From positions 1 to 34,031 of the forward strand of contig CAIMWE010000132.1 in NCBI GenBank assembly GCA_903845115.1: a DNA stretch of 34,031 nt. Direction: 5' to 3'. This document shows positions 1,458-33,853 of this stretch, piece after piece (positions within the stretch are counted from its first letter, which is position 1; every line of letters starts with the position of its first letter). Both the position numbers and the translations under genes were made by a program. The DNA is from an uncultured Acidobacteriota bacterium (GTDB taxonomy: Bacteria; Acidobacteriota; Thermoanaerobaculia; UBA5066). The notes beneath the pieces are model-generated. The model was not told the DNA's origin. It ran no database searches and was given only the letters and a program-made list of their open reading frames with translations.

Positions 1458-1589
1458 GGGCGGCGGACGATACCCGAAGAGCCGGAGGCCCGCTCGGGGC
1501 AGCTTCGAAGCGGGCAAGCTGATCCCCGGAAGTGGAAGGGATGAGTCCAGCCGCCGACGGGCGGCCCGAGGGCCTGGGCTCCACCGGCC

Positions 1590-2009
1590 CTACGAACCGG
1601 AGAACGGGTTCTCGACCCGCAGCGTCCCGAAGCGCCGACCCTCCTGGAGATCCTCCGTCAGGAGCCTTCCGCAGCCCCCCTGGAGAGCCGCCTCGACGAT
1701 CAACGCATCCCACAGCGAGAGGCGGTCTCCCCGGGAGCGGGCGATCCCCGAGAGGACGAGCGGACCGTCGACGGAGACGACCTCGAGCTCCGCCAGCTCG
1801 CGGGCGGCGGCCTCGGCGTCCCGCTCGGACATCGGGTGCCCGAGCTTCCGCGTCACCGTGACGTAGAACTCCTGCAGGACCTGGGTGCTGACGGCGGCAG
1901 AGCTCCCCTCGGCCTCCAGCACGGCGCAGGCTCGCCGCTGCTTTTCGGGCGAGTCCTGGTCGAACAGGTAGACGAGGACGTTCGTGTCCAGGAACGCTCT
2001 ACCGCTCAT
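1590..2009 (-). CDS. PIN-domain toxin (VapC-like)
   Basis: 139-residue PIN-domain protein, a Mg-dependent RNase toxin of a type II TA pair. The acidic residues expected for the active site are visible: D8 in FLDTNVLVYLFD, an E near residue 46 (TQVLQEFYVT), D in SLWDALIVEAA and D in LLTEDLQEG. It starts at ATG 2009, 11 nt inside the end of the antitoxin gene, so the pair is translationally coupled. The length is normal for the family. RNA target unknown. Confidence 0.88.
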   Translation of the reverse strand: MSGRAFLDTNVLVYLFDQDSPEKQRRACAVLEAEGSSAAVSTQVLQEFYVTVTRKLGHPMSERDAEAAARELAELEVVSVDGPLVLSGIARSRGDRLSLWDALIVEAALQGGCGRLLTEDLQEGRRFGTLRVENPFSGS

Positions 2010-6085: not shown

Positions 6086-7249
6086 TCAACCCGAGAGCGC
6101 CGACTCCAGGTCCGCAATCAAATCGTCCAATGACTCGATTCCGACCGAGAGGCGGACGAGGCCCCCCTCGATGCCGAGCTTCCGCCTCACCTCGGCCGGC
6201 ACCGAGGAGTGGGTCATGATGCCGGGGTGCTCGATGAGGCTCTCCACGCCTCCGAGGCTCTCGGCCAGGGAGAAGACGCGGCACCTCTCGAGGAATCGCC
6301 GGGCCTCGTTCTCGCCCCCCTTCAGGACGGCCGACACCATGCCGCCGAAGCCGTTCATCTGGCGCTGCGCCAGCTCGTGCTGCGGGTGGCTCGGGAGGCC
6401 CGGGTAGATGACGCGCTCGACTCTCCGGTGGCCCTCCAGCCACGACGCCACGGCCAGGGCGTTCAGACAGTGCTGCCGCATCCGGAGCTCCAGCGTCTTC
6501 AGCCCGCGGCTGACCAGGAAGCAGTCGAACGGGCTCGGCACCGAGCCGACCGCGTTCTGGAGGAACCGGAGCCTCTCGGCGAGGGCGTCGTCGCCCGCCA
6601 CGACCACGCCGCTGATGACGTCCGAGTGACCGTTGAGGTACTTCGTCGCCGAGTGGAGGACGAGGGAGAAACCGCGCGCGAGAGGCTCCTGGACCCACGG
6701 CGAGGCGAACGTGTTGTCGGCCACCGCCAGGATCCCCCGCTCGCGCGCCACCTCGCCGACCATCGAGAGGTCGACCAGCTTCAGGAGCGGGTTGCTCGGC
6801 GTCTCCACCCAGATCATCCGCGTGTCGGGCCGGAGCGCCGCCTCGAGGTCGGCCCGGCTCGTCATCGGGGAATAGGTGAAGTCGAGGTTCGCCGAGCGGC
6901 GGCGCACCTTCTCGAAGAGCCGCTGCGTCCCGCCGTAGAGGTCGTCGAGGGCGACGACGTGCGACCCGGCGTCCAGGAGCTCCAGGACCGTGGCGATCGC
7001 GGCCATGCCGGACGAGAACGCGAAGCCCGCGCGCCCCCCTTCGAGCGAGGCGACGCACTCTTCGAGAGCGTAGCGCGTCGGGTTGTGCGACCGGCCGTAG
7101 TCGAGCCCCTTGTGGACCCCGGGGCTCTCCTGCACGTACGTCGCCGTCGCGAAGATCGGCGTGATCACCGCGCCGGTGGCCGGGTCCGGAGGCTGCCCCG
7201 CGTGGATAGCCCGGGTCGCGAAGCCGGCTTTCCTTTCGGCGTCGCTCAT
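6086..7249 (-). CDS. Cystathionine gamma-lyase (Cys/Met PLP family)
   Basis: 387-residue PLP enzyme of the Cys/Met metabolism family. Visible motifs are YGRSHNPTRYALEE, FSSGMAAI, VETPSNPLLKLVD, DNTFASPW, and the PLP lysine in LHSATKYLNGHSDVISG. The C-terminal SLGGVESLIEHPGIMTH is typical. Sequence alone does not cleanly separate gamma-lyase from gamma-synthase. The 4-nt ATGA overlap with the CBS gene favours a lyase acting after CBS: cystathionine to cysteine, 2-oxobutyrate and ammonia. A second family member at 20529-21722 is of the plant synthase type, which also argues that this copy is the lyase. Confidence 0.87.
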   Translation of the reverse strand: MSDAERKAGFATRAIHAGQPPDPATGAVITPIFATATYVQESPGVHKGLDYGRSHNPTRYALEECVASLEGGRAGFAFSSGMAAIATVLELLDAGSHVVALDDLYGGTQRLFEKVRRRSANLDFTYSPMTSRADLEAALRPDTRMIWVETPSNPLLKLVDLSMVGEVARERGILAVADNTFASPWVQEPLARGFSLVLHSATKYLNGHSDVISGVVVAGDDALAERLRFLQNAVGSVPSPFDCFLVSRGLKTLELRMRQHCLNALAVASWLEGHRRVERVIYPGLPSHPQHELAQRQMNGFGGMVSAVLKGGENEARRFLERCRVFSLAESLGGVESLIEHPGIMTHSSVPAEVRRKLGIEGGLVRLSVGIESLDDLIADLESALSG

Positions 7250-8736
7250 CCGGCCTCCTGCTTCGCCCGCCGGCGAAGATAGTTCAGCAAGTCGATCCTG
7301 GTGATCAGCCCCTGGAATCGGCCGTCCTGGACGACGATCGGGACCTTCCCCTGCTCGAAGACCGGCAGGAGGGCGTCGACCGAGGCGTCGGGCGTCAGCG
7401 TCTCGAGGCGGGTCGTCATGTGGGCCCGGACCGGCTCCCGGAAGACCTCGCCCCGGCGGTAGGCGGCGAGGAGGAGGTCCGATTCGTCGACGATCCCGAC
7501 GATCCGGTCGTTCTCCAGGACGGGGAGCTGCGAGACGTCGTAGAGGCGGAAGCGCTGGTCGGCGACGGCGAGCGTGTCGTCCGGGTCGAGGCTGACGACC
7601 GCGTTGTCGGCGAACCGGCGCCCGATCAGGTCGCGGAGGTCGCCGAACCGCTCCCGCTCGAGGAACCCCTGGTCCAGCATCCAGAAGTCGTTGTACATCT
7701 TCGAGAGGTACTTGTTCCCGCTGTCGCAGATGAACGTGACGACCCGCTCGGGGGCGGTCCGGCTCCGGCAGTAGCGGAGCGCGGCGGCCACCAGCGTCCC
7801 CGCCGTGGAGCCCGCGAGGATCCCCTCCTCGAGCAGCAGCGCCCGGGCCGTCGCGAAGCTCTCGGCGTCGCCGATCGTGTAGGCCTCCGCAACCCCCGTC
7901 AGGTCGGCGATGGGGGGGAGGAAGTCCTCTCCGATCCCCTCGACGAGCCACGAGCCCGCCTCCCCGATCGTCCCGTCCCGGACGTACCCCGCCAGGATCG
8001 ACCCCTCGGGATCGGCCAGGACCATCCGGACGGACGGTTCGACCCTCCGGAAGTAGCGCGTCAGGCCCGTCAGCGTCCCGCCGCTCCCGACGCCGCAGAC
8101 CACGGCGTCGACCTTCCCGCCCATCTGCCTCCAGATCTCGGGGCCCGTCCGCGTCTCGTGGGCCTCCGGGTTGGCGGGGTTGCCGAACTGGTTCACGTAG
8201 AACGCCCCCGGCGTCTCCCGCGCGATCTTCTCGGCCAGGTCCTGGTAGTACGCCGGGTGCCCCTTGCCGACGTCCGACCGGGTCAGGACCACCTCGGCCC
8301 CGAGCGCCTTCAGGTGGAAGACCTTTTCCTGGCTCATCTTGTCCGGGATGACGAGCTTCAGCCGGTACCCCTTCCGCGCCGCCACGAGGGCGAGGCCGAG
8401 GCCGGTGTTGCCGGCCGTCGCCTCCACGAGCGTCCCGCCCGGCGGGAGCTTCCCTTCCCGCTCGGCGGCGGCGATCATCGAGAGCGCGATCCGGTCCTTG
8501 ATCGAGCCGCCCGGGTTCTGGTTCTCCAGCTTGACGAAGAGGCGGCACGGGCCGCGGTCCAGCTTCTTCAGCTCGACGAGCGGCGTGTTCCCGATCAGGT
8601 CGAGAACGTCCGACACCACGCCCAGGCGATCTCCGGGGGCGTCGAAGGTCCCCGGCCCCGCGCCGAGCCCGGAGCAGCCGTCGGTCGCGCGTAGCGGCGA
8701 CGGGGCGAGCGCGGGGATGGGGGTGAAACCGTGCAT
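7246..8736 (-). CDS. Cystathionine beta-synthase with CBS regulatory domains
   Basis: 496-residue PLP enzyme condensing homocysteine with serine (or O-acetylserine) to give cystathionine. The catalytic domain, about residues 38-345, has DLIGNTPLVELKKLD, the PLP lysine in NPGGSIKDRIAL, EATAGNTGLGLA and GVGSGGTLTGLTRYF. The C-terminal part, about 365-490, holds two CBS motifs (QLPVLENDRIVGIVDESDLL and KVPIVVQDGRFQGLITRIDL). In some homologues these bind adenosyl ligands. ATG 8736 is chosen because GAGG lies 5 nt upstream. The first 35 residues are unlike the family core, and an in-frame GTG starting VSDVLDLIGN is an alternative. It is first in the operon, 79 nt behind the Cys leader ORF. The stop overlaps the lyase start. 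Confidence 0.93.
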   Translation of the reverse strand: MHGFTPIPALAPSPLRATDGCSGLGAGPGTFDAPGDRLGVVSDVLDLIGNTPLVELKKLDRGPCRLFVKLENQNPGGSIKDRIALSMIAAAEREGKLPPGGTLVEATAGNTGLGLALVAARKGYRLKLVIPDKMSQEKVFHLKALGAEVVLTRSDVGKGHPAYYQDLAEKIARETPGAFYVNQFGNPANPEAHETRTGPEIWRQMGGKVDAVVCGVGSGGTLTGLTRYFRRVEPSVRMVLADPEGSILAGYVRDGTIGEAGSWLVEGIGEDFLPPIADLTGVAEAYTIGDAESFATARALLLEEGILAGSTAGTLVAAALRYCRSRTAPERVVTFICDSGNKYLSKMYNDFWMLDQGFLERERFGDLRDLIGRRFADNAVVSLDPDDTLAVADQRFRLYDVSQLPVLENDRIVGIVDESDLLLAAYRRGEVFREPVRAHMTTRLETLTPDASVDALLPVFEQGKVPIVVQDGRFQGLITRIDLLNYLRRRAKQEAG

Positions 8737-8758
8737 GGTTCCTCGTCACGAAAGCGAA

Positions 8759-8784
8759 GGCCCACCGCCTCGGGTTGGTGGGCC
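8759..8784 (-). terminator. Attenuator hairpin upstream of the CBS gene
   Basis: Perfect 8-bp stem GGCCCACC / GGTGGGCC with a 10-nt loop, between the leader stop (8816) and the CBS start (8736). In the transcript it is followed by TTCGCTTT, a weak U-rich run. The loop sequence resembles those of the hairpins at 15793-15819 and 33631-33664. The 5' arm can instead pair (7 of 8) with GGCGGGCC inside the leader ORF (8830-8837), which would be an antiterminator. Confidence 0.62.
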
Positions 8785-8815
8785 TGGTGTATCCGGGTGC
8801 TGATCGAGACCAGCG

Positions 8816-8881
8816 TTACGGACTGAATCGGCCCGCCACCCCGCGACAACACATCGACTTCAGGGGCGTGCCGTTCTTCAT
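8816..8881 (-). CDS. Cys-Cys leader peptide of the CBS operon (uORF)
   Basis: 21-codon ORF starting 8 nt downstream of the -10 box and ending TAA 79 nt before CBS. It begins MKNGTPLKS, then MCCRG: residues 11-12 are two consecutive TGT cysteine codons. The rest is GVAGRFSP. The leader at 33693-33758 is the same except for one Val-to-Ala change, and the leader at 15845-15922 also has Met-Cys-Cys at residues 10-12. No ribosome-binding site fits between promoter and ATG, so it would be translated as a leaderless mRNA. Expected role: ribosomes stalling at the Cys codons when Cys-tRNA is short permit readthrough of the downstream hairpin. Confidence 0.72.
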   Translation of the reverse strand: MKNGTPLKSMCCRGVAGRFSP

Positions 8882-8889
8882 CGCGGACG

Positions 8890-8918
8890 AGTATCGGGAA
8901 AGGGCCCGATCGAGTCAA
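8890..8918 (-). promoter_or_regulatory. Promoter of the CBS leader transcript
   Basis: Minus-strand -35 TTGACT (8913-8918) and -10 GATACT (8890-8895), spacer exactly 17. The identical hexamers and spacing recur at 15931-15959 and 33767-33795, each 8 nt before a leader ORF. Confidence 0.72.
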
Positions 8919-8976
8919 GAGTTTTCTTTAAAATCCTTATCACTTACATAACTTGCTATAAACAAAATTGTTATAG
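8919..8976 (-). promoter_or_regulatory. Conserved AT-rich upstream activator region
   Basis: AT-rich block directly upstream of the -35 box, in strong contrast to the surrounding GC-rich DNA. It aligns base by base with 33796-33853, sharing AAGGATTTTA, AGAAAACTC and GTTAT. At its far end is an imperfect inverted repeat, CTATAAACAAAATTGTTATAG (8956-8976), with core ACAAAATTGT. The layout resembles a LysR- or Rrf2-type regulator site (inference). Confidence 0.55.
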
Positions 8977-14700: not shown

Positions 14701-15753
14701 TCACTTGACCTGGTAGGCCTGGTCGAAGGTGCCGCCGTCGTCGAAGTGGGTCTTCTGCGCCTTCCTCCAGCCGCCGAAGAGTTCGTCGACGGTGAAGAGG
14801 GCCACCTTCGGGAAGTGGTCGGCGTGCTTCGCGGCGACGGCCGCCGATCGGGGGCGGTAGTGGTGCTTCGCCGCGATCTCCTGCCCCTCCTCGGTGTAGA
14901 GGAACTCGAGGTAGGCCTGCGCCAGCGCGCGGGTCCTGTGCTTGTCGGCGTTCACGTCGACGACGGAGACGGGGGGTTCGGCCAGGATGCTCACCGACGG
15001 CAGGACGATCTCGAACCTCTCCTTCCCCACCTCGCGGGTCAGGAGGAAGGCCTCGTTCTCCCAGGCGATCAGGACGTCGCCGATCCCGCGCTCGGAGAAC
15101 GTCGTCGTCGAGCCTCGCGCCCCCGTGTCCAGGACGGGGACGTTCCTGTACAGGTCCCTGACGAAGGCCCGCGCGGTCGCCTCGCTCCCGCCGGGCCGCT
15201 TCAGCGCGTAGCCCCAGGCCGCCAGATAGTTCCAGCGCGCCCCCCCGGAGGTCTTCGGGTTCGGGGTGACGACCGAGATCCCGGGCTTCGCCAGGTCGTC
15301 CCAGTCCTTCACCTTCTTCGGGTTCCCCTTCCGGACGACGAAGACGATCGTGGAGGTGTAGGGAGAGCTGTTGCTCGGGAGCCGCTTCTGCCACGTCTCC
15401 GGAAGGAGCTTCGACTTGTCGGCGATCGCGTCGATGTCGTACGCCAGGGCGAGGGTGACGACGTCCGCCTCGAGACCGTCGATCACCGACCGGGCCTGCT
15501 TCCCGGAGCCGCCGTGGGACTGGTTGACGGTCACCGTCCGGCCGCTCTTCGCCTTCCAGGCCTTCGTGAAGGCGGCGTTCACGTCGGCATAGAGCTCCCG
15601 GGTCGGGTCGTACGAGACGTTCAGGAGCGTCGCCGGCGCCTCGGCGGCCTCCGCGGGGCTCGCGGCCGGACCGGCCGGCCCGAGGAGCGCGGCGAGCCCG
15701 ATCGCCGCGGCGATCGGAAGGGTCCGTCTCCGTGTGTCCGTCTGCTGTCCCAT
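14701..15753 (-). CDS. sbp: Periplasmic sulfate/thiosulfate-binding protein
   Basis: 350-residue solute-binding protein of the Sbp/CysP family. It has a twin-arginine-like or Sec signal ([20 protein letters not shown]) and an Ala-rich cleavage region, then [20 protein letters not shown]. Ligand-site segments are present: [59 protein letters not shown] and [16 protein letters not shown] 15753 follows AAGGAGAGAG. It is the first gene after the second Cys leader. The permease and ATPase genes (cysTWA) that normally accompany it are not in this window. A 3'-terminal remnant of a close relative lies at 2300-2351. I use sbp rather than cysP by resemblance only. Confidence 0.94.
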
Positions 15754-15792
15754 TTCTCTCTCCTTTTCGCTGGGTCCGCCAAGCACGACAAC

Positions 15793-15819
15793 GCCCACCT
15801 CCCCTCGCGGGTGGTGGGC
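15793..15819 (-). terminator. Attenuator hairpin upstream of sbp
   Basis: 7-bp perfect stem GCCCACC / GGTGGGC with a 13-nt loop, extendable by CAA/TTG across one bulged base. It lies between the leader stop and the sbp start. No clear U-tract follows. Its 5' side (CCACCACC in the transcript, 15810-15817) is exactly complementary over 8 nt to GGTGGTGG in leader codons 16-19 (15868-15875), a candidate antiterminator. Confidence 0.55.
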
Positions 15820-15844
15820 TTGCTCCGATCCTCGTGACCTGGGT

Positions 15845-15922
15845 TCAGGTCAGCAGGAGTCGCAGATCCACCACCTCGCGGGTGCCACAACACATGTGCA
15901 TCTGCTCGGCGGGGATCTTCAT
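15845..15922 (-). CDS. Cys-Cys leader peptide of the sbp operon (uORF)
   Basis: 25-codon ORF starting 8 nt after the -10 box and ending TGA 91 nt before sbp. It begins MKIPAEQMH, then [14 protein letters not shown]. Met-Cys-Cys falls at residues 10-12, exactly as in the two other leaders, although most other residues differ. That pattern suggests selection on the Cys codons and on RNA pairing rather than on the peptide. It has no Shine-Dalgarno, so it should be translated leaderless. Codons 16-19 carry the segment complementary to the downstream hairpin. Confidence 0.7.
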
Positions 15923-15930
15923 CGAGGGAG

Positions 15931-15959
15931 AGTATCCGGACCGCCCGGATCGAAGTCAA
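15931..15959 (-). promoter_or_regulatory. Promoter of the sbp leader transcript
   Basis: Minus-strand -35 TTGACT (15954-15959), 17-bp spacer, -10 GATACT (15931-15936). It is identical in hexamers and spacing to the promoters at 8890-8918 and 33767-33795, although the spacer sequences differ. Confidence 0.72.
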
Positions 15960-15967
15960 GAAAATTC

Positions 15968-15996
15968 TTGACAATCCTGAAACAGATAACAAGAAT
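15968..15996 (+). promoter_or_regulatory. Divergent promoter for the sulfate-activation operon
   Basis: Plus-strand -35 TTGACA (15968-15973) with AAGAAT (15991-15996, four of six) 17 bp later. GATAAC lies in the spacer. The site is back-to-back with the sbp leader promoter, so one regulator could act on both operons. The -10 is weak. Confidence 0.42.
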
Positions 15997-16143: not shown

Positions 16144-16461
16144 ATGAAGCCAGCAGCGGACCACCCGGCCTTTCCGAGCGGCGGGACGCCCCAGGCGATC
16201 CTGGCCTGGGCCGTGAAGATCAGTCCCCTGCTCGACTGGAGCCGCGACGACGTGGCCCGGTACGTCGAGACCCACGCCGTCCCGATCAACGCCCTCCACG
16301 CGCAGGGATACCCCAGCATCGGCTGCCGCCCCTGCACCACCGCGGTGAGACCCGGGGAGGACCTCCGTTCCGGCCGCTGGAGGGGAGCCCTCGAGACCGA
16401 GTGCGGAATCCACGCGCCCTCGCAACCGTCCGATTCCAGGAGGACCGACGACCATGCCTGA
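16144..16461 (+). CDS. C-terminal stub of PAPS/APS reductase (CysH)
   Basis: 105-residue ORF whose residues about 22-92 match the C-terminal part of CysH: KISPLLDWSRDDVARYVETH, then NALHAQGYPSIGCRPCTTAV, PGEDLRSGRW and the catalytic-tail ETECGIH. The roughly 150-residue N-terminal nucleotide-binding domain is missing, including its P-loop and the Cys-Cys pair that helps hold the 4Fe-4S cluster in APS reductases. It is absent upstream too, where a hairpin and C-rich spacer lie. The ORF is uninterrupted, starts at ATG 16144 with GAGGGA 10 nt upstream, and overlaps sat-cysC by 8 nt. It could be a decaying gene kept for translational coupling or a repurposed thiol/redox module. Catalysis on PAPS is unlikely. 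Confidence 0.72.
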   Translation: MKPAADHPAFPSGGTPQAILAWAVKISPLLDWSRDDVARYVETHAVPINALHAQGYPSIGCRPCTTAVRPGEDLRSGRWRGALETECGIHAPSQPSDSRRTDDHA

Positions 16462-22921: not shown

Positions 22922-24620
22922 ATGAAACATGACAAGCCGGGCGCCTCCTCCGCGATGGGGCTGAGGGAGCGTGCGGAAGAGCAGTTCCGGAAACGTCCGG
23001 CACCGGCGGCGGCCGCAGGCACAGGCGATTCCGACCTGAAGCGAGTCGTCCAGGAGCTGCAGATCCACCAGATCGAGCTGGAGCTCCAGAACGGGGAGCT
23101 GCAACAGGCGAAGCTCGAGCTGGAGGAGTCCCGGAGGAGTTACGAGGACCTCTTCGACTTCGCCCCCGTGGGGTACTTCACGCTCGAAGCCGACGGGAGG
23201 ATCCGGCAGGTCAACCTCGCGGGGGCCCGTCTCGTGGAGGTCCCGCGGGGGCAGCTCCAGGGCACGCGGCTGGGGATCCGGCTGACCGGGTCAAGCCGTC
23301 CCGCCTTCGCCTCGTTCGTCGCGGACGTGCTGGCGGGAAGGGCCACGGGGCCGTGCTACGCGGGCCTCCTGCGGGAGAGCGGCGAACCGGCCTGCGGGCG
23401 CCTCGAAGGCGTCGCCAGCGACGACGGGAGCTGGGGCCGGATCGTGATGACGGACGTGACGGAAGCCAGGAAGGCCACGCAGGTGGCGCAGGAGGCCGAA
23501 GCGGCCCTTCGCGTCCACCGGGAGGCGCTGCGCTCGGTCCTGGCATCCACCGCGGACGGCATCCTCGCCGTGGGACTGAATCGGCGCGTCGTCCACAAGA
23601 ACAGGCGCTTCCTGGAGATCTGGCGGATTCCTCCCCGGGTCGCGGCGTCGGGGGACGACAAGGCTCTCCTGGAATCGGCCCTCTCCCAGCTCGTCGAGCC
23701 CGAGCAGTTCCTGGCGAAGGTGGAGGCGCTGTACGGTTCCGACCGGGATGACCAGGATGTTCTCGCCTTCATGGACGGCCGGGTCGTGGACCGCTTCTCG
23801 TCGGCCATGATGCTGGAGGGCGCCGTCGCGGGGAGGGTCTGGTCCTTCCGCGACATCACCGCGCGGAGGCGGGCCGAGGAGGCGCTGCGGGCCCTTCGCG
23901 CCGAGCTGGAGCAGCGGGTGAGCGAGCGGACGGCCTCCCTGGAGGAGGCGAACCGGGAGCTGGAGGCGTACTCGCACTCGATCGCGCACGAGCTGCGGAC
24001 CCCGCTCCGCGCCATCGACGGCCATTCGGCCCTGATCGCCCGGGACCAGGCGGGACGGCTCGACGACGAGGGCCGCCGCCATTTCGAGCAGGTGCGCTGG
24101 AACGCGCGGCGGATGGGGCAGCTGATCGACGACTTCCTCGTCTATTCACAGGCGGGCCGCGGGGACCTTCACGTGACCGCGCTGGACATGGCCGGGGAGG
24201 CGCGCGGCCTTTGCCGAGGTCGTCCCCGACCCCGTCTCCCGCCGCCGGATCTCGTTCTCGGTGGAAGCCCTGCCGGGGACCCGGGGGGACGCGGCCCTCC
24301 TGGGCAAGGTCTGGGCGATCCTCCTCTCGAACGCCGTGAAGTTCTCGGCCGTGCGGGAGAACCCGGAGATCCGGGTCGAGGGGAGCATCTTGAACGGCGA
24401 GGCAGTCTATAGCGTCCGGGACAACGGCGTCGGGTTCGACATGCAGTACGCCGGCAAGCTCTTCGGCGTCTTCCAGCGCCTGGTCGGACAGAACGAGTTC
24501 GAGGGGACCGGGGTCGGCCTCGCCTTCCTCCGGCGGATCGTCGTCCGCCACGGCGGGCGCGTCTGGGCCACGGGAGCCGTGGACGGGGGGTCGACCTTCT
24601 TCTTCACGCTCGGCCGGTAG
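22922..24620 (+). pseudogene. PAS-domain sensor histidine kinase, frameshifted
   Basis: Soluble hybrid-free histidine kinase. It has an N-terminal coiled coil (LKRVVQELQIHQIELELQNG), a PAS domain (RSYEDLFDFAPVGYFTLEAD), and a second PAS-like region around residues 195-315. A coiled coil follows, then the HisKA box with H356 (AYSHSIAHELRTPLRAIDGH). The reading frame then breaks near 24205-24215, within GGCGCGCGGCC. The ATPase half continues one frame over: FAEVVPDPVSRRRISFSVEA, N-box LLSNAVKFSA, DNGVGFDMQYAGKLFGVFQR, TGVGLAFLRRIVVRHGGRVW, stop at 24618-24620. Restoring one GC dinucleotide in the GC run would rejoin the frames as GEARAAFAEV. This could be a sequencing error or a recent mutation. 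The start at ATG 22922 has only a weak GGA before it. No response regulator is adjacent. Confidence 0.8.
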
Positions 24621-24626
24621 GGAGAT

Positions 24627-24754
24627 GGGGTCAGGGCTGCGTTTTGTGTTTTTCGGTCTAACCCCGAACAGGCCGACGATCCCGAGGAGACTTGCCCGGG
24701 TGTCCCACCTTCAGGGCTTCTCTGTATTTCCACACAAAACACAGCCCTGACCCC
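24627..24754. repeat. 128-bp inverted-repeat element, copy 1
   Basis: Bounded by 22-bp terminal inverted repeats with one mismatch: GGGGTCAGGGCTG... at the left and ...CAGCCCTGACCCC at the right. Copies 2 (25422-25550) and 3 (26495-26622) are about 95% identical by eye and in the same orientation. It has no transposase, so it resembles a MITE or long REP element. It begins 6 nt after the kinase stop codon. Short ORFs run through it on both strands and are treated as by-products. Confidence 0.85.
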
Positions 24755-24787
24755 GAGGGTCCCGAGGGTCCACCGTTTCACTGGCGT

Positions 24788-25374: not shown

Positions 25375-25421
25375 CCGCTGACCCCGAGTGTCCCGAGGAG
25401 GTCAAGGCGCGCGGGGGAGAT

Positions 25422-25550
25422 GGGGTCAGGGCTGCGTTTTGTGTTTTTTCGGTCGAACCCCGAACAGGCCAACGATCCCGAGGAGACTTGCCGGGGTGTC
25501 CCACCTTCAGAGCTTCTCTGCATTTCCACACAAAACACAGCCCTGACCCC
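25422..25550. repeat. Inverted-repeat element, copy 2
   Basis: 129-bp copy of the element at 24627-24754, with the same terminal inverted repeats and orientation. Just before it, 25377-25399 carries a stray right-end fragment (CTGACCCCGAGTGTCCCGAGG), suggesting that another copy was overwritten or recombined here. It separates the MazF-type module from the VapBC module. Confidence 0.85.
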
Positions 25551-25756
25551 GAGTGTCCAGCGTCTTCCCGACGTTCATTCGTCACCTCGGGTCTTTCGAG
25601 CCTGAAGGCACCGCGAGGCAACGGATCGAAATTCAAATCGTGGACACCCGCAAACCGCCCTAACGCCCGGCGCATCAAAATGTTAGCAGCAGCGCGCATC
25701 AAATCAACCGAACACTAGTGGGGTCATGGTGTCCTTTCTCCCGCAGCCAGGCCGGC
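25551..25756. other. Gene-free stretch before the VapBC promoter
   Basis: No coding region was recognised. It contains CCCTAACGCCCGGCGCATCA followed by AAAATGTTAGC (25661-25690 area). This loosely resembles the outer boxes of an integron attC site but lacks the central stem and does not match RYYYAAC/GTTRRRY exactly. Confidence 0.4.
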
Positions 25757-26481: not shown

Positions 26482-26494
26482 GCGCGGGGGAGAT

Positions 26495-26622
26495 GGGGTC
26501 AGGGCTGCGTTTTGTGTTTTTCGGTCGAACCCCGAACAGGCCGACGATCCCGAGGAGACTTGCCCGGGTGTCCCACCTTCAGAGCTCTTCTGCATTTCCA
26601 CACAAAACACAGCCCTGACCCC
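26495..26622. repeat. Inverted-repeat element, copy 3
   Basis: 128-bp copy of the element at 24627-24754, same orientation, with conserved GGGGGAGAT just outside the left end as in copy 2. It closes a repeat-TA-repeat-TA-repeat array and precedes the CheB-CheR gene by about 100 nt. Confidence 0.85.
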
Positions 26623-26723
26623 GAAGGTAAGCGGCGTAGACTCTTATCGGGCGCCTCGGGCGTCGCGGCAGATCTGGCCGGGCAGCCTGCCATCGGTCTG
26701 TCCGCGAGAAAGCGGAGAGGACG

Positions 26724-32615: not shown

Positions 32616-33152
32616 CTAACCGCACGTCGTCTCGCGAACCGCGGGAGGAGGCTGCGGCGCGACGGTGGCCGGCAGGGTGACGGCCAGCGCTGGAGGAGGC
32701 GCGGCGGCGGTCTCCTCGTCGCCGTCCCGCCCGGGGGCGAAGCGGTCCGCGGCGACGAGCCCGGCCGCCATCGCGGCGACGAAGGCCAGGACCGGCACGG
32801 ACCCGGTGACGGCCGCGACGAGCGCGGGTCCGGGACAAACTCCGGCCAGCCCCCAGCCGACGCCGAAGAGGGCGGAGCCGAGAAAGAGGCGGGCGTCGAG
32901 GCTGTGTCTCGCCGGGAGGACGAAGCGGGACACGAGCACCGGCGACGCCCGCCGGAGGATGAGAGCGAACGAGACGAGCCCGACGAAGACCGCGCCTCCC
33001 ATCACGAGGACCAGGCTGGGGTCCCAGGCGCCGAAGAGGTCCAGGAAGCCGATCACCTTCGAGGGGCGCGTCATCCCCGCTATTCCGAGGCCGAGGGAGA
33101 AGACGAGGCCGGAACCGAACGCCGCCGCGTTCCGGAGGGCGGGGCCCTTCAT
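32616..33152 (-). CDS. YeeE/YedE transporter, C-terminal half (DUF6691-like)
   Basis: 178-residue membrane protein with about four hydrophobic helices: AAAFGSGLVFSLGLGIAGMT, LVLVMGGAVFVGLVSFALIL, LFLGSALFGVGWGLAGVCPG and GSVPVLAFVAAMAAGLVAAD. GVGWGLAGVCPGPAL carries the conserved cysteine of the second half of thiosulfate transporters of the YeeE/TsuA type. A 40-residue Pro/Ala tail ends in Cys-Gly. I chose ATG 33152, whose ATGA overlaps the stop of the upstream half; ATG 33161 is an alternative. The two halves probably form one heteromeric channel for thiosulfate or a similar sulfur compound. Confidence 0.85.
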   Translation of the reverse strand: MKGPALRNAAAFGSGLVFSLGLGIAGMTRPSKVIGFLDLFGAWDPSLVLVMGGAVFVGLVSFALILRRASPVLVSRFVLPARHSLDARLFLGSALFGVGWGLAGVCPGPALVAAVTGSVPVLAFVAAMAAGLVAADRFAPGRDGDEETAAAPPPALAVTLPATVAPQPPPAVRETTCG

Positions 33153-33610
33153 CGGACCCATCCCGGGAGGTGCAGCCGGACGAGCACGACGGCGATCGCG
33201 GCCGCCATGAACGTGAGGGTGGCCGCGAGCGACCGGACCGAGCGGCGGCTCAGACCGCAGACGCCGTGGCCGCTGGTGCAGCCGCCCCCGAGCCGGCTCC
33301 CGAAGCCGACGATCAGGCCGGCCAGGGCGAAGCGAAGGACCGTGGCCGGGGCCGGGTCGATCGCCTCGAAGGCGGCGGGCCAGGCGACCAGCAGGACGGC
33401 CCCGCCCGCGATCAGCCCAGCCACGAAGGTGCCGCGGACGGAGCGGCCCTCGGCGGACGTCTCTCCCGCAGGCTCGAAGAGGCCGGCCACGATCCCGCTG
33501 ATTCCGGCCAGCCGGCCGTTCAGGAAGAGGAGCGCCGCGGCGGCGATCCCGATGAGGAGGCCGCCGGCGAGAGCCGGAACGGGAGTGAAATTGACCGTCG
33601 CCACTGGCAC
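33149..33610 (-). CDS. YeeE/YedE transporter, N-terminal half
   Basis: 153-residue membrane protein with about four helices and the diagnostic motif GFGSRLGGGCTSGHGVCGLS, where the conserved cysteines sit in the pore in the YeeE family. In single-chain homologues both halves are fused; here they are two overlapping genes. I chose GTG 33610 because AGGGGA lies 7 nt upstream and a start further up (33640) would fall inside the terminator hairpin. It is the first gene after the third Cys leader, which supports a role in sulfur-source uptake. Confidence 0.87.
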   Translation of the reverse strand: MPVATVNFTPVPALAGGLLIGIAAAALLFLNGRLAGISGIVAGLFEPAGETSAEGRSVRGTFVAGLIAGGAVLLVAWPAAFEAIDPAPATVLRFALAGLIVGFGSRLGGGCTSGHGVCGLSRRSVRSLAATLTFMAAAIAVVLVRLHLPGWVR

Positions 33611-33630: not shown

Positions 33631-33664
33631 GAAGACCCACCCCCTCGCCGGGTGGTGGGCCTTC
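33631..33664 (-). terminator. Attenuator terminator upstream of the YeeE genes
   Basis: 11-bp stem GAAGGCCCACC / GGTGGGTCTTC with one G-U wobble pair in the RNA, followed by CTTTTTG: a textbook intrinsic terminator placed 20 nt before the start codon. It is the clearest of the three leader hairpins. Its 5' arm can alternatively pair with GGCGGGCC in the leader ORF (33707-33714). Confidence 0.75.
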
Positions 33665-33692: not shown

Positions 33693-33758
33693 CTACGGAC
33701 TGAATCGGCCCGCCGCCCCGCGACAACACATCGACTTCAGGGGCGTGCCGTTCTTCAT
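33693..33758 (-). CDS. Cys-Cys leader peptide of the YeeE operon (uORF)
   Basis: 21-codon ORF starting 8 nt after the -10 box. It is identical to the CBS leader peptide except Ala for Val at residue 15, with Met-Cys-Cys at residues 10-12 (ATG TGT TGT). It ends at TAG, 82 nt before the YeeE start. No Shine-Dalgarno is present, so translation should begin at the 5' end of the transcript. Confidence 0.74.
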   Translation of the reverse strand: MKNGTPLKSMCCRGAAGRFSP

Positions 33759-33766
33759 CGCCGCCG

Positions 33767-33795
33767 AGTATCGGGACAGGGGCCGATCGAGTCAA
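33767..33795 (-). promoter_or_regulatory. Promoter of the YeeE leader transcript
   Basis: Minus-strand -35 TTGACT (33790-33795), 17-bp spacer, -10 GATACT (33767-33772). It is the same as the promoters at 8890-8918 and 15931-15959. Confidence 0.73.
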
Positions 33796-33853
33796 GAGTT
33801 TTCTATAAAATCCTTAGCACCTATATAACTGTTTGTAAACAATATTGTTATCA
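33796..33853 (-). promoter_or_regulatory. AT-rich upstream regulator region with palindrome
   Basis: This region aligns closely with 8919-8976. The perfect 12-bp palindrome AACAATATTGTT (33838-33849) lies within CTGATAACAATATTGTTTAC on the minus strand. It is a candidate site for a sulfur-responsive activator or repressor shared with the CBS operon. Confidence 0.55.

Follow-up and report, generated by a model that had tools for sequence, protein, structure and literature searches.

Putative leaderless cysteine attenuators upstream of sulfur genes in Acidobacteriota

Why should a minute reading frame with two adjacent cysteine codons be followed by a terminator-like hairpin, immediately ahead of a gene of sulfur metabolism? 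This question is raised by the DNA upstream of a cystathionine beta-synthase (CBS)-type gene in an Acidobacteriota bacterium, located in a stretch of 34,031 nucleotides that was analysed at its full length (here referred to as the window). The DNA itself shows the parts of this leader and the order in which they stand, the recurrence of the arrangement, its occurrence with sulfur genes and the complementarity of the arms. Each leader of this kind very probably acts as a ribosome-mediated transcription attenuator, which reads the charging of Cys-tRNA.

Three leaders in a sulfur-gene window

An earlier note had described, ahead of the CBS operon, a promoter TTGACT-17-GATACT, a 21-codon ORF with TGT codons at positions 11 and 12, an 8-bp terminator-like hairpin and a leader segment pairing at seven of eight positions with the 5' arm of this hairpin. 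All of these are present, and the pairing segment turned out to be part of a longer duplex:

8890-8918, minus strand: promoter; -35 box TTGACT (8918-8913), 17-nt spacer, -10 box GATACT (8895-8890)
8816-8881, minus strand: leader ORF of 21 codons, MKNGTPLKSMCCRGVAGRFSP followed by a stop, with its ATG at 8881
8846-8851, minus strand: control codons TGT TGT (codons 11-12)
8829-8844, minus strand: 5' strand of the predicted antiterminator duplex, GCGGGGTGGCGGGCCG, including the segment GGCGGGCC at 8837-8830
8791-8823, minus strand: predicted helper stems 8823-8819/8795-8791 and 8814-8809/8804-8799 between the antiterminator strands, from a fold of the nascent RNA with the ribosome at codon 12
8758-8785, minus strand: terminator-like hairpin with 8-bp GC arms GGCCCACC (8784-8777) and GGTGGGCC (8766-8759), dG -18.1
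7246-8736, minus strand: CBS-type gene (PLP enzyme with CBS domains), start ATG 8736
6086-7216, minus strand: second gene of the operon, Cys/Met metabolism PLP enzyme (PF01053, E 9.9e-144), start approximate

The promoter scores 9 of 12, and scores of at least 9 are reached at 0.5% of random positions. Since its -10 box ends 8 nt before the ATG, the 5' end of the transcript is expected to coincide with the start codon or to lie no more than 1-2 nt from it; no Shine-Dalgarno (SD)-like site was found before the ORF. The U-tract of the hairpin, TTCGCTTTCG, is poor, at best moderately U-rich. Among NCBIfam models the CBS-type gene is best matched by TIGR01137, with a score under the equivalog cut-off, and the second gene of the operon is, judging from its family, the reverse trans-sulfuration partner of the CBS-type enzyme.

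For such a leader we infer leaderless translation, stalling, termination, antitermination and dependence on cysteine, which could be coupled in the following manner: RNA polymerase would start at or beside the ATG, and a ribosome would load on the leaderless ORF and trail the polymerase. When Cys-tRNA is plentiful, the ribosome would clear the tandem Cys codons and reach the stop region, where it would cover or melt the leader segment at approximately codons 14-19; the GC hairpin may then form, and transcription would end before the gene. When Cys-tRNA is scarce, the ribosome would be held up at the tandem codons; the leader segment, left free, may then pair with the terminator's loop and 5' arm once this arm has been made. 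With the terminator blocked by this pairing, the sulfur genes would be transcribed.

The two further leaders of which the earlier note spoke were located at 33758-33693 and 15922-15845:

33767-33795, minus strand: second leader, promoter TTGACT-17-GATACT
33693-33758, minus strand: second leader, uORF MKNGTPLKSMCCRGAAGRFSP
33631-33664, minus strand: second leader, terminator GAAGGCCCACCACCCGGCGAGGGGGTGGGTCTTC followed by the tail CTTTTTGC, dG -26.3
33149-33610, minus strand: start of the gene behind the second leader, DUF6691/Sulf_transp (YeeE/YedE-like)
15931-15959, minus strand: third leader, promoter TTGACT-17-GATACT
15845-15922, minus strand: third leader, uORF
15788-15823, minus strand: third leader, terminator-like hairpin GCAAGCCCACCACCCGCGAGGGGAGGTGGGCGTTGT with a weak U-tract, dG -23.4
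14701-15753, minus strand: gene behind the third leader, sulfate ABC transporter substrate-binding protein (NF008022, 508 bits, cut-off 288)

The second leader is a DNA copy of the CBS leader (88% identical), and all three have in common the arrangement TTGACT-17-GATACT-8-ATG and two cysteines at codons 11-12. The pattern TTGACN{15,21}GATACTN{24,54}TGYTGY matches the 5.8-Mb genome at three sites, which are exactly these leaders, and its reversed control at none. The genes behind all three are sulfur genes; together with an ATP sulfurylase/APS kinase gene and a ThiF-rhodanese gene, which the window also contains, they mark it as a sulfur assimilation island. All six control codons are TGT, the minority Cys codon (3 TGT to 34 TGC in nine ORFs of the window; Fisher p=1.4e-5). 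Codon choice in attenuation leaders affects their sensitivity (PMC1183508), although in this genome TGT and TGC are probably read by one tRNA. No NCBIfam model matches the leader peptides, and neither the window nor the leaders of 11 loci gave an Rfam 15 match at gathering score, with sub-threshold noise only at E<=10.

Several other features of the window were recorded. An AT-rich block lies immediately 5' of the -35 boxes (8919-8945, 33796-33822 and 15960-15986, minus strand); it is near-identical in the CBS and second leaders and partly kept in the third, and it may be an operator site for a sulfur regulator of the Rrf2 type. The PAPS reductase domain encoded ahead of the ATP sulfurylase/APS kinase gene (16144-16461, plus strand) is represented by its C-terminal part only, possibly due to a truncation or frameshift. 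A 141-nt repeat is present in three copies, which are 82-96% identical (24620-24760, 25416-25556 and 26488-26628).

Related leaders and the tRNA-Cys loci

The orthologous sulfate-binding protein is present in all genomes of the same family. In two of them (G007 and G006), leaderless MCC-type uORFs, MTALPHLACMCCRSRWMVEASPLN and MSSVHLMCCCRLRPARWMS, stand before it, together with the hairpins GCCCACCATCCGCCAGGACGGTGGGC and GCCCACCACCCGCGAGGGACGGTGGGCGTTTTTCTTTT, which are GCCCACC/GGTGGGC terminators; the distance between the last Cys codon and CCCACC is 63-68 nt in all five leaders, the three of the window included. In other genera of the family (L041-L054), the Cys leader is absent before the sulfate-binding-protein gene. 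At these loci the gene adjoins an Rrf2-like regulator gene, identified by eye and without a family search, which suggests that RNA control and protein control have been exchanged at this gene. Most genomes of the class (Thermoanaerobaculia) hold zero copies of the exact leader pattern: across the class, a rigid pattern of promoter and two cysteines retrieved, besides the three leaders of the window, a single unrelated gene, and generic TGYTGY patterns with CCCACC/GGTGGG yielded mostly noise.

More distant leaders were sought by a GTDB-wide pattern scan and a covariance model (CM) of nine leaders. Cys leaders were found before sulfite reductases (L131, L103, L137), a cysteine synthase (L143), a sulfur transporter (L148), 1-Cys peroxiredoxins (L112, L138, L142) and homoserine dehydrogenases (L145, L140), as well as before a DUF2325 gene in two Myxococcota genomes (L093, 4652-5002, by Pfam; L213, approximately 1750-2069, by eye), hinting at a sulfur or thiol role of this family. 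A set of 25 leaders carries 2-9 Cys codons each, and the genes behind them belong mostly to sulfur metabolism. Most of the 50 GTDB pattern matches were discarded as chance, with MCC falling inside genes and no promoter present; L144 and the majority of the Myxococcota CM matches were set aside as false positives and L113 as lying inside a gene; L141 was left out, its Cys codons being separated. L146 is a tryptophan (WWW) rather than a Cys leader: at approximately 1501-1613 (minus strand) of another Acidobacteriota genome, it consists of a tryptophan attenuator MTTSIRYAWWWYASLREVATD and a U-tract terminator with a similar hairpin, and the gene behind it looks like the anthranilate-synthase type.

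Both searches are biased towards the GCCCACC stem, so that the duplex, folding and promoter tests rest partly on members selected for their hairpin sequence; two gene-based surveys free of this bias were therefore added. Upstream of sulfite-reductase-like genes, a Cys uORF with a terminator occurs at 10/30 and 9/29 loci, compared with 2/30 and 2/29 in antisense (pooled 19/59 vs 4/59, Fisher p=4e-4; background rate 0.03 per kb), where one or two of the matches (L167, L193) look accidental. Upstream of Acidobacteriaceae peroxiredoxin genes the figures are 20/30 and, in antisense, 1/30 (p=1e-7), one or two matches being doubtful (L235, L249). The same test for eleven other amino acids gave no comparable excess.

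From the position of their promoters, most of the leader ORFs would be leaderless: in 16 of the 25 leaders, the start codon follows the end of a -35/-10 pair (score at least 8) at a distance of 3-12 nt, in comparison to 3% of random positions, and an SD-like site was found in none of the 25.

In Acidobacteriaceae, a tRNA-Cys(GCA) gene lies 45-70 nt past the leader-controlled 1-Cys peroxiredoxin gene, in the same direction, at seven survey loci (L220-L225, L227), all of which carry the Cys leader. It follows the peroxiredoxin gene also at L138:2386-2461 and L142:2364-2439. In six Acidobacteriaceae genomes (three of them in one contig), this copy is the sole full-length tRNA-Cys sequence match and apparently the only such gene. 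If peroxiredoxin and tRNA-Cys are co-transcribed, the switch would govern the supply of the very molecule it senses; a separate promoter for the tRNA is possible. In other genera of Acidobacteriaceae, ARAGORN calls a tRNA-SeC 100-300 nt past the peroxiredoxin gene (L230, L244, L248). Taken more broadly, leaderless cysteine attenuators may constitute a phylum-wide cysteine regulon of Acidobacteriota, shared with some Myxococcota and comprising sulfate uptake, sulfite reduction, cysteine synthesis and peroxiredoxin, with the only tRNA-Cys gene of Acidobacteriaceae expressed through such a leader and uncharged tRNA-Cys exerting feedback on the supply of tRNA-Cys and, along with it, of a thiol peroxidase; to this larger picture we give even weight for and against.

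Antiterminator pairing and rival explanations

A possible duplex between the segment that follows the Cys run and the 5' arm and loop of the same leader's terminator was assessed in 17 leaders. In the CBS leader, the duplex of GCGGGGTGGCGGGCCG (8844-8829) with AGGCCCACCAACCCGA reaches -25.5 kcal/mol, compared with -16.2 +/- 2.6 in shuffled leaders (p=0.005). The duplex is significant against dinucleotide shuffles (p<0.05) in 14 of the 17, the exceptions being L093, L138 and L142, and matched pairs average -24.5 kcal/mol vs -19.4 for swapped pairs (permutation p=5e-5). Leader arm and terminator arm vary jointly, from GGTGGTGG with CCACCACC in the window to GGATGGTGG with CCACCATCC in G007, GCATCCGG with CCGGATGC in L103 and CTCTCCGGCGGTGG with CCACTGCCGGAGAG in G443 (one G-U). 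The earlier note had proposed cysteine attenuation by mutually exclusive hairpins, and had held that its reading would fall if Cys codons and pairing arms were not conserved in related genomes; they are conserved in G006, G007 and the wider Acidobacteriota, and the relatives' leaders with their jointly changing arms support the proposed logic.

When the complete terminator is included, it always wins at equilibrium and the two ribosome states are not separated. The attenuation model thus needs co-transcriptional kinetics, as classical attenuators do, and the nascent state (RNA without the terminator 3' arm) was modelled instead. In this state the leader holds the terminator arm with a median of 0.65 when the ribosome is at the Cys codons vs 0.26 when it is at the stop; the difference exceeds 0.3 in 15 of 25 leaders and runs in the opposite direction in none of the 25. 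Part of the difference stems from the position of the ribosome mask, and the leaders were therefore also shuffled: the stalled state then stands at 0.65 observed vs 0.46 shuffled (p=4e-7 over the set; 6 of 25 leaders individually). Taken singly, the CBS leader carries less weight than the leader family; its duplex favours the attenuation reading, whereas its stalled-state ensemble (0.50 vs 0.35, p=0.26) is not significant, nor is that of its copy, the second leader (p=0.62). Part of the antiterminator segment would stay uncovered in the sulfate-binding-protein leader when the ribosome is at the stop codon.

Across all leaders, hairpin dG ranges from -10 to -36 and the U-tract is strong in most, but weak in two leaders of the window, those before CBS and the sulfate-binding protein. 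These two weak U-tracts out of three would suit an alternative in which the gene's ribosome-binding site is buried in a structure and becomes accessible when the ribosome stalls on the Cys codons, without any termination of transcription, as proposed for mycobacteria, which have leaderless Cys uORFs of the same kind (PMC4633059; PMC9031893, on Canestrari 2020). Such translational attenuation is unlikely, as the SD and start of the gene lie 18-89 nt beyond the hairpin and outside it, a position because of which SD sequestration was rejected as the main mechanism, and TTTTT-type tails directly follow the hairpin in many relatives (e.g. G006, L112, L131, L103, G268).

Less likely still is a constitutive insulating terminator combined with a uORF-encoded small thiol- or metal-binding peptide, the promoter being run by a transcription factor such as an Rrf2 regulator. 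The AT-rich block common to the two copied leaders and partly to the third would fit such a factor, as would the Rrf2-like genes, recognized by eye, that adjoin sulfate-binding-protein genes in other genera of the family. Across genera, however, conservation extends to the Cys codons, the spacing and the RNA pairing but not to the peptide outside the Cys run, and a terminator between promoter and gene is sensible only if it is regulated. An attenuation of the Rho-dependent or polarity type, in which a stalled or released ribosome alters the access of Rho and the hairpin is incidental, has been proposed for mycobacterial Cys leader peptides, where no terminators were found (PMC1262725), but is highly improbable here in view of the conserved hairpin and U-tract at a fixed distance and the matched antiterminator.

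Comparison with known systems

The leader set combines tandem Cys codons, an intrinsic terminator before the gene and a predicted, mutually exclusive antiterminator. It thereby resembles attenuators of the trp/his type (Rfam His_leader, Trp_leader etc.), which likewise have control codons, an antiterminator strand approximately 5-25 nt after them and an intrinsic terminator; it differs by cysteine control, the leaderless ORF, the location of the control codons outside a clear 1:2 pause hairpin and the lack of any Rfam match.

Two cysteine systems are closer: (i) the polycysteine uORFs of mycobacteria, which are leaderless and act on translation (PMC4633059; PMC9031893, on Canestrari 2020; PMC13236596), share with the present leaders a short leaderless ORF with contiguous Cys codons before cysteine genes and a readout of cysteine by elongation speed. 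A leaderless Cys uORF before cysteine genes is predicted here too (by the promoters of 16 of the 25 leaders), and masking of the SD was not found. The mycobacterial mechanism is described as translational, and Cys leader peptides of Mycobacterium, P. acnes and B. longum have no conserved terminators (PMC1262725), whereas the present leaders have hairpin, U-tract and antiterminator, with the SD of the gene outside the structure; (ii) the uORFC-8-2 motif before cysS in Rhodobacterales is likewise a predicted ribosome-mediated transcription attenuator with tandem Cys codons and an intrinsic terminator (PMC8632094). It has been found only before cysS in Rhodobacterales, its control codons are in the first stem and mostly UGC, and a leaderless ORF is not described for it. 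The present leaders, in contrast, are leaderless by prediction, occur in Acidobacteriota and Myxococcota and are found at sulfur assimilation, peroxiredoxin and tRNA-Cys loci, preceding CBS, sulfate-binding protein, sulfite reductase, peroxiredoxin and other genes.

The claim that this architecture had not been described therefore has to yield to uORFC-8-2 for tandem Cys codons with an intrinsic terminator, and stands for the rest. Predicted attenuators of Acidobacteria are almost wholly without assigned function (PMC2965389), and a search of the open-access literature yielded no account of a cysteine attenuator in Acidobacteriota, nor of one at tRNA-Cys. The leader family provides an annotation rule for small Cys-rich ORFs overlooked by gene finders and a testable model of cysteine sensing in Acidobacteriota. 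Cysteine attenuation has rarely been documented, namely for the translational uORFs of mycobacteria and one predicted cysS leader; what appears to be new here is a phylum-wide cysteine attenuator, leaderless, with an intrinsic terminator and absent from Rfam 15, i.e. a putative ribosome-mediated switch on a leaderless ORF that recurs in a large, poorly studied phylum and reaches a tRNA gene.
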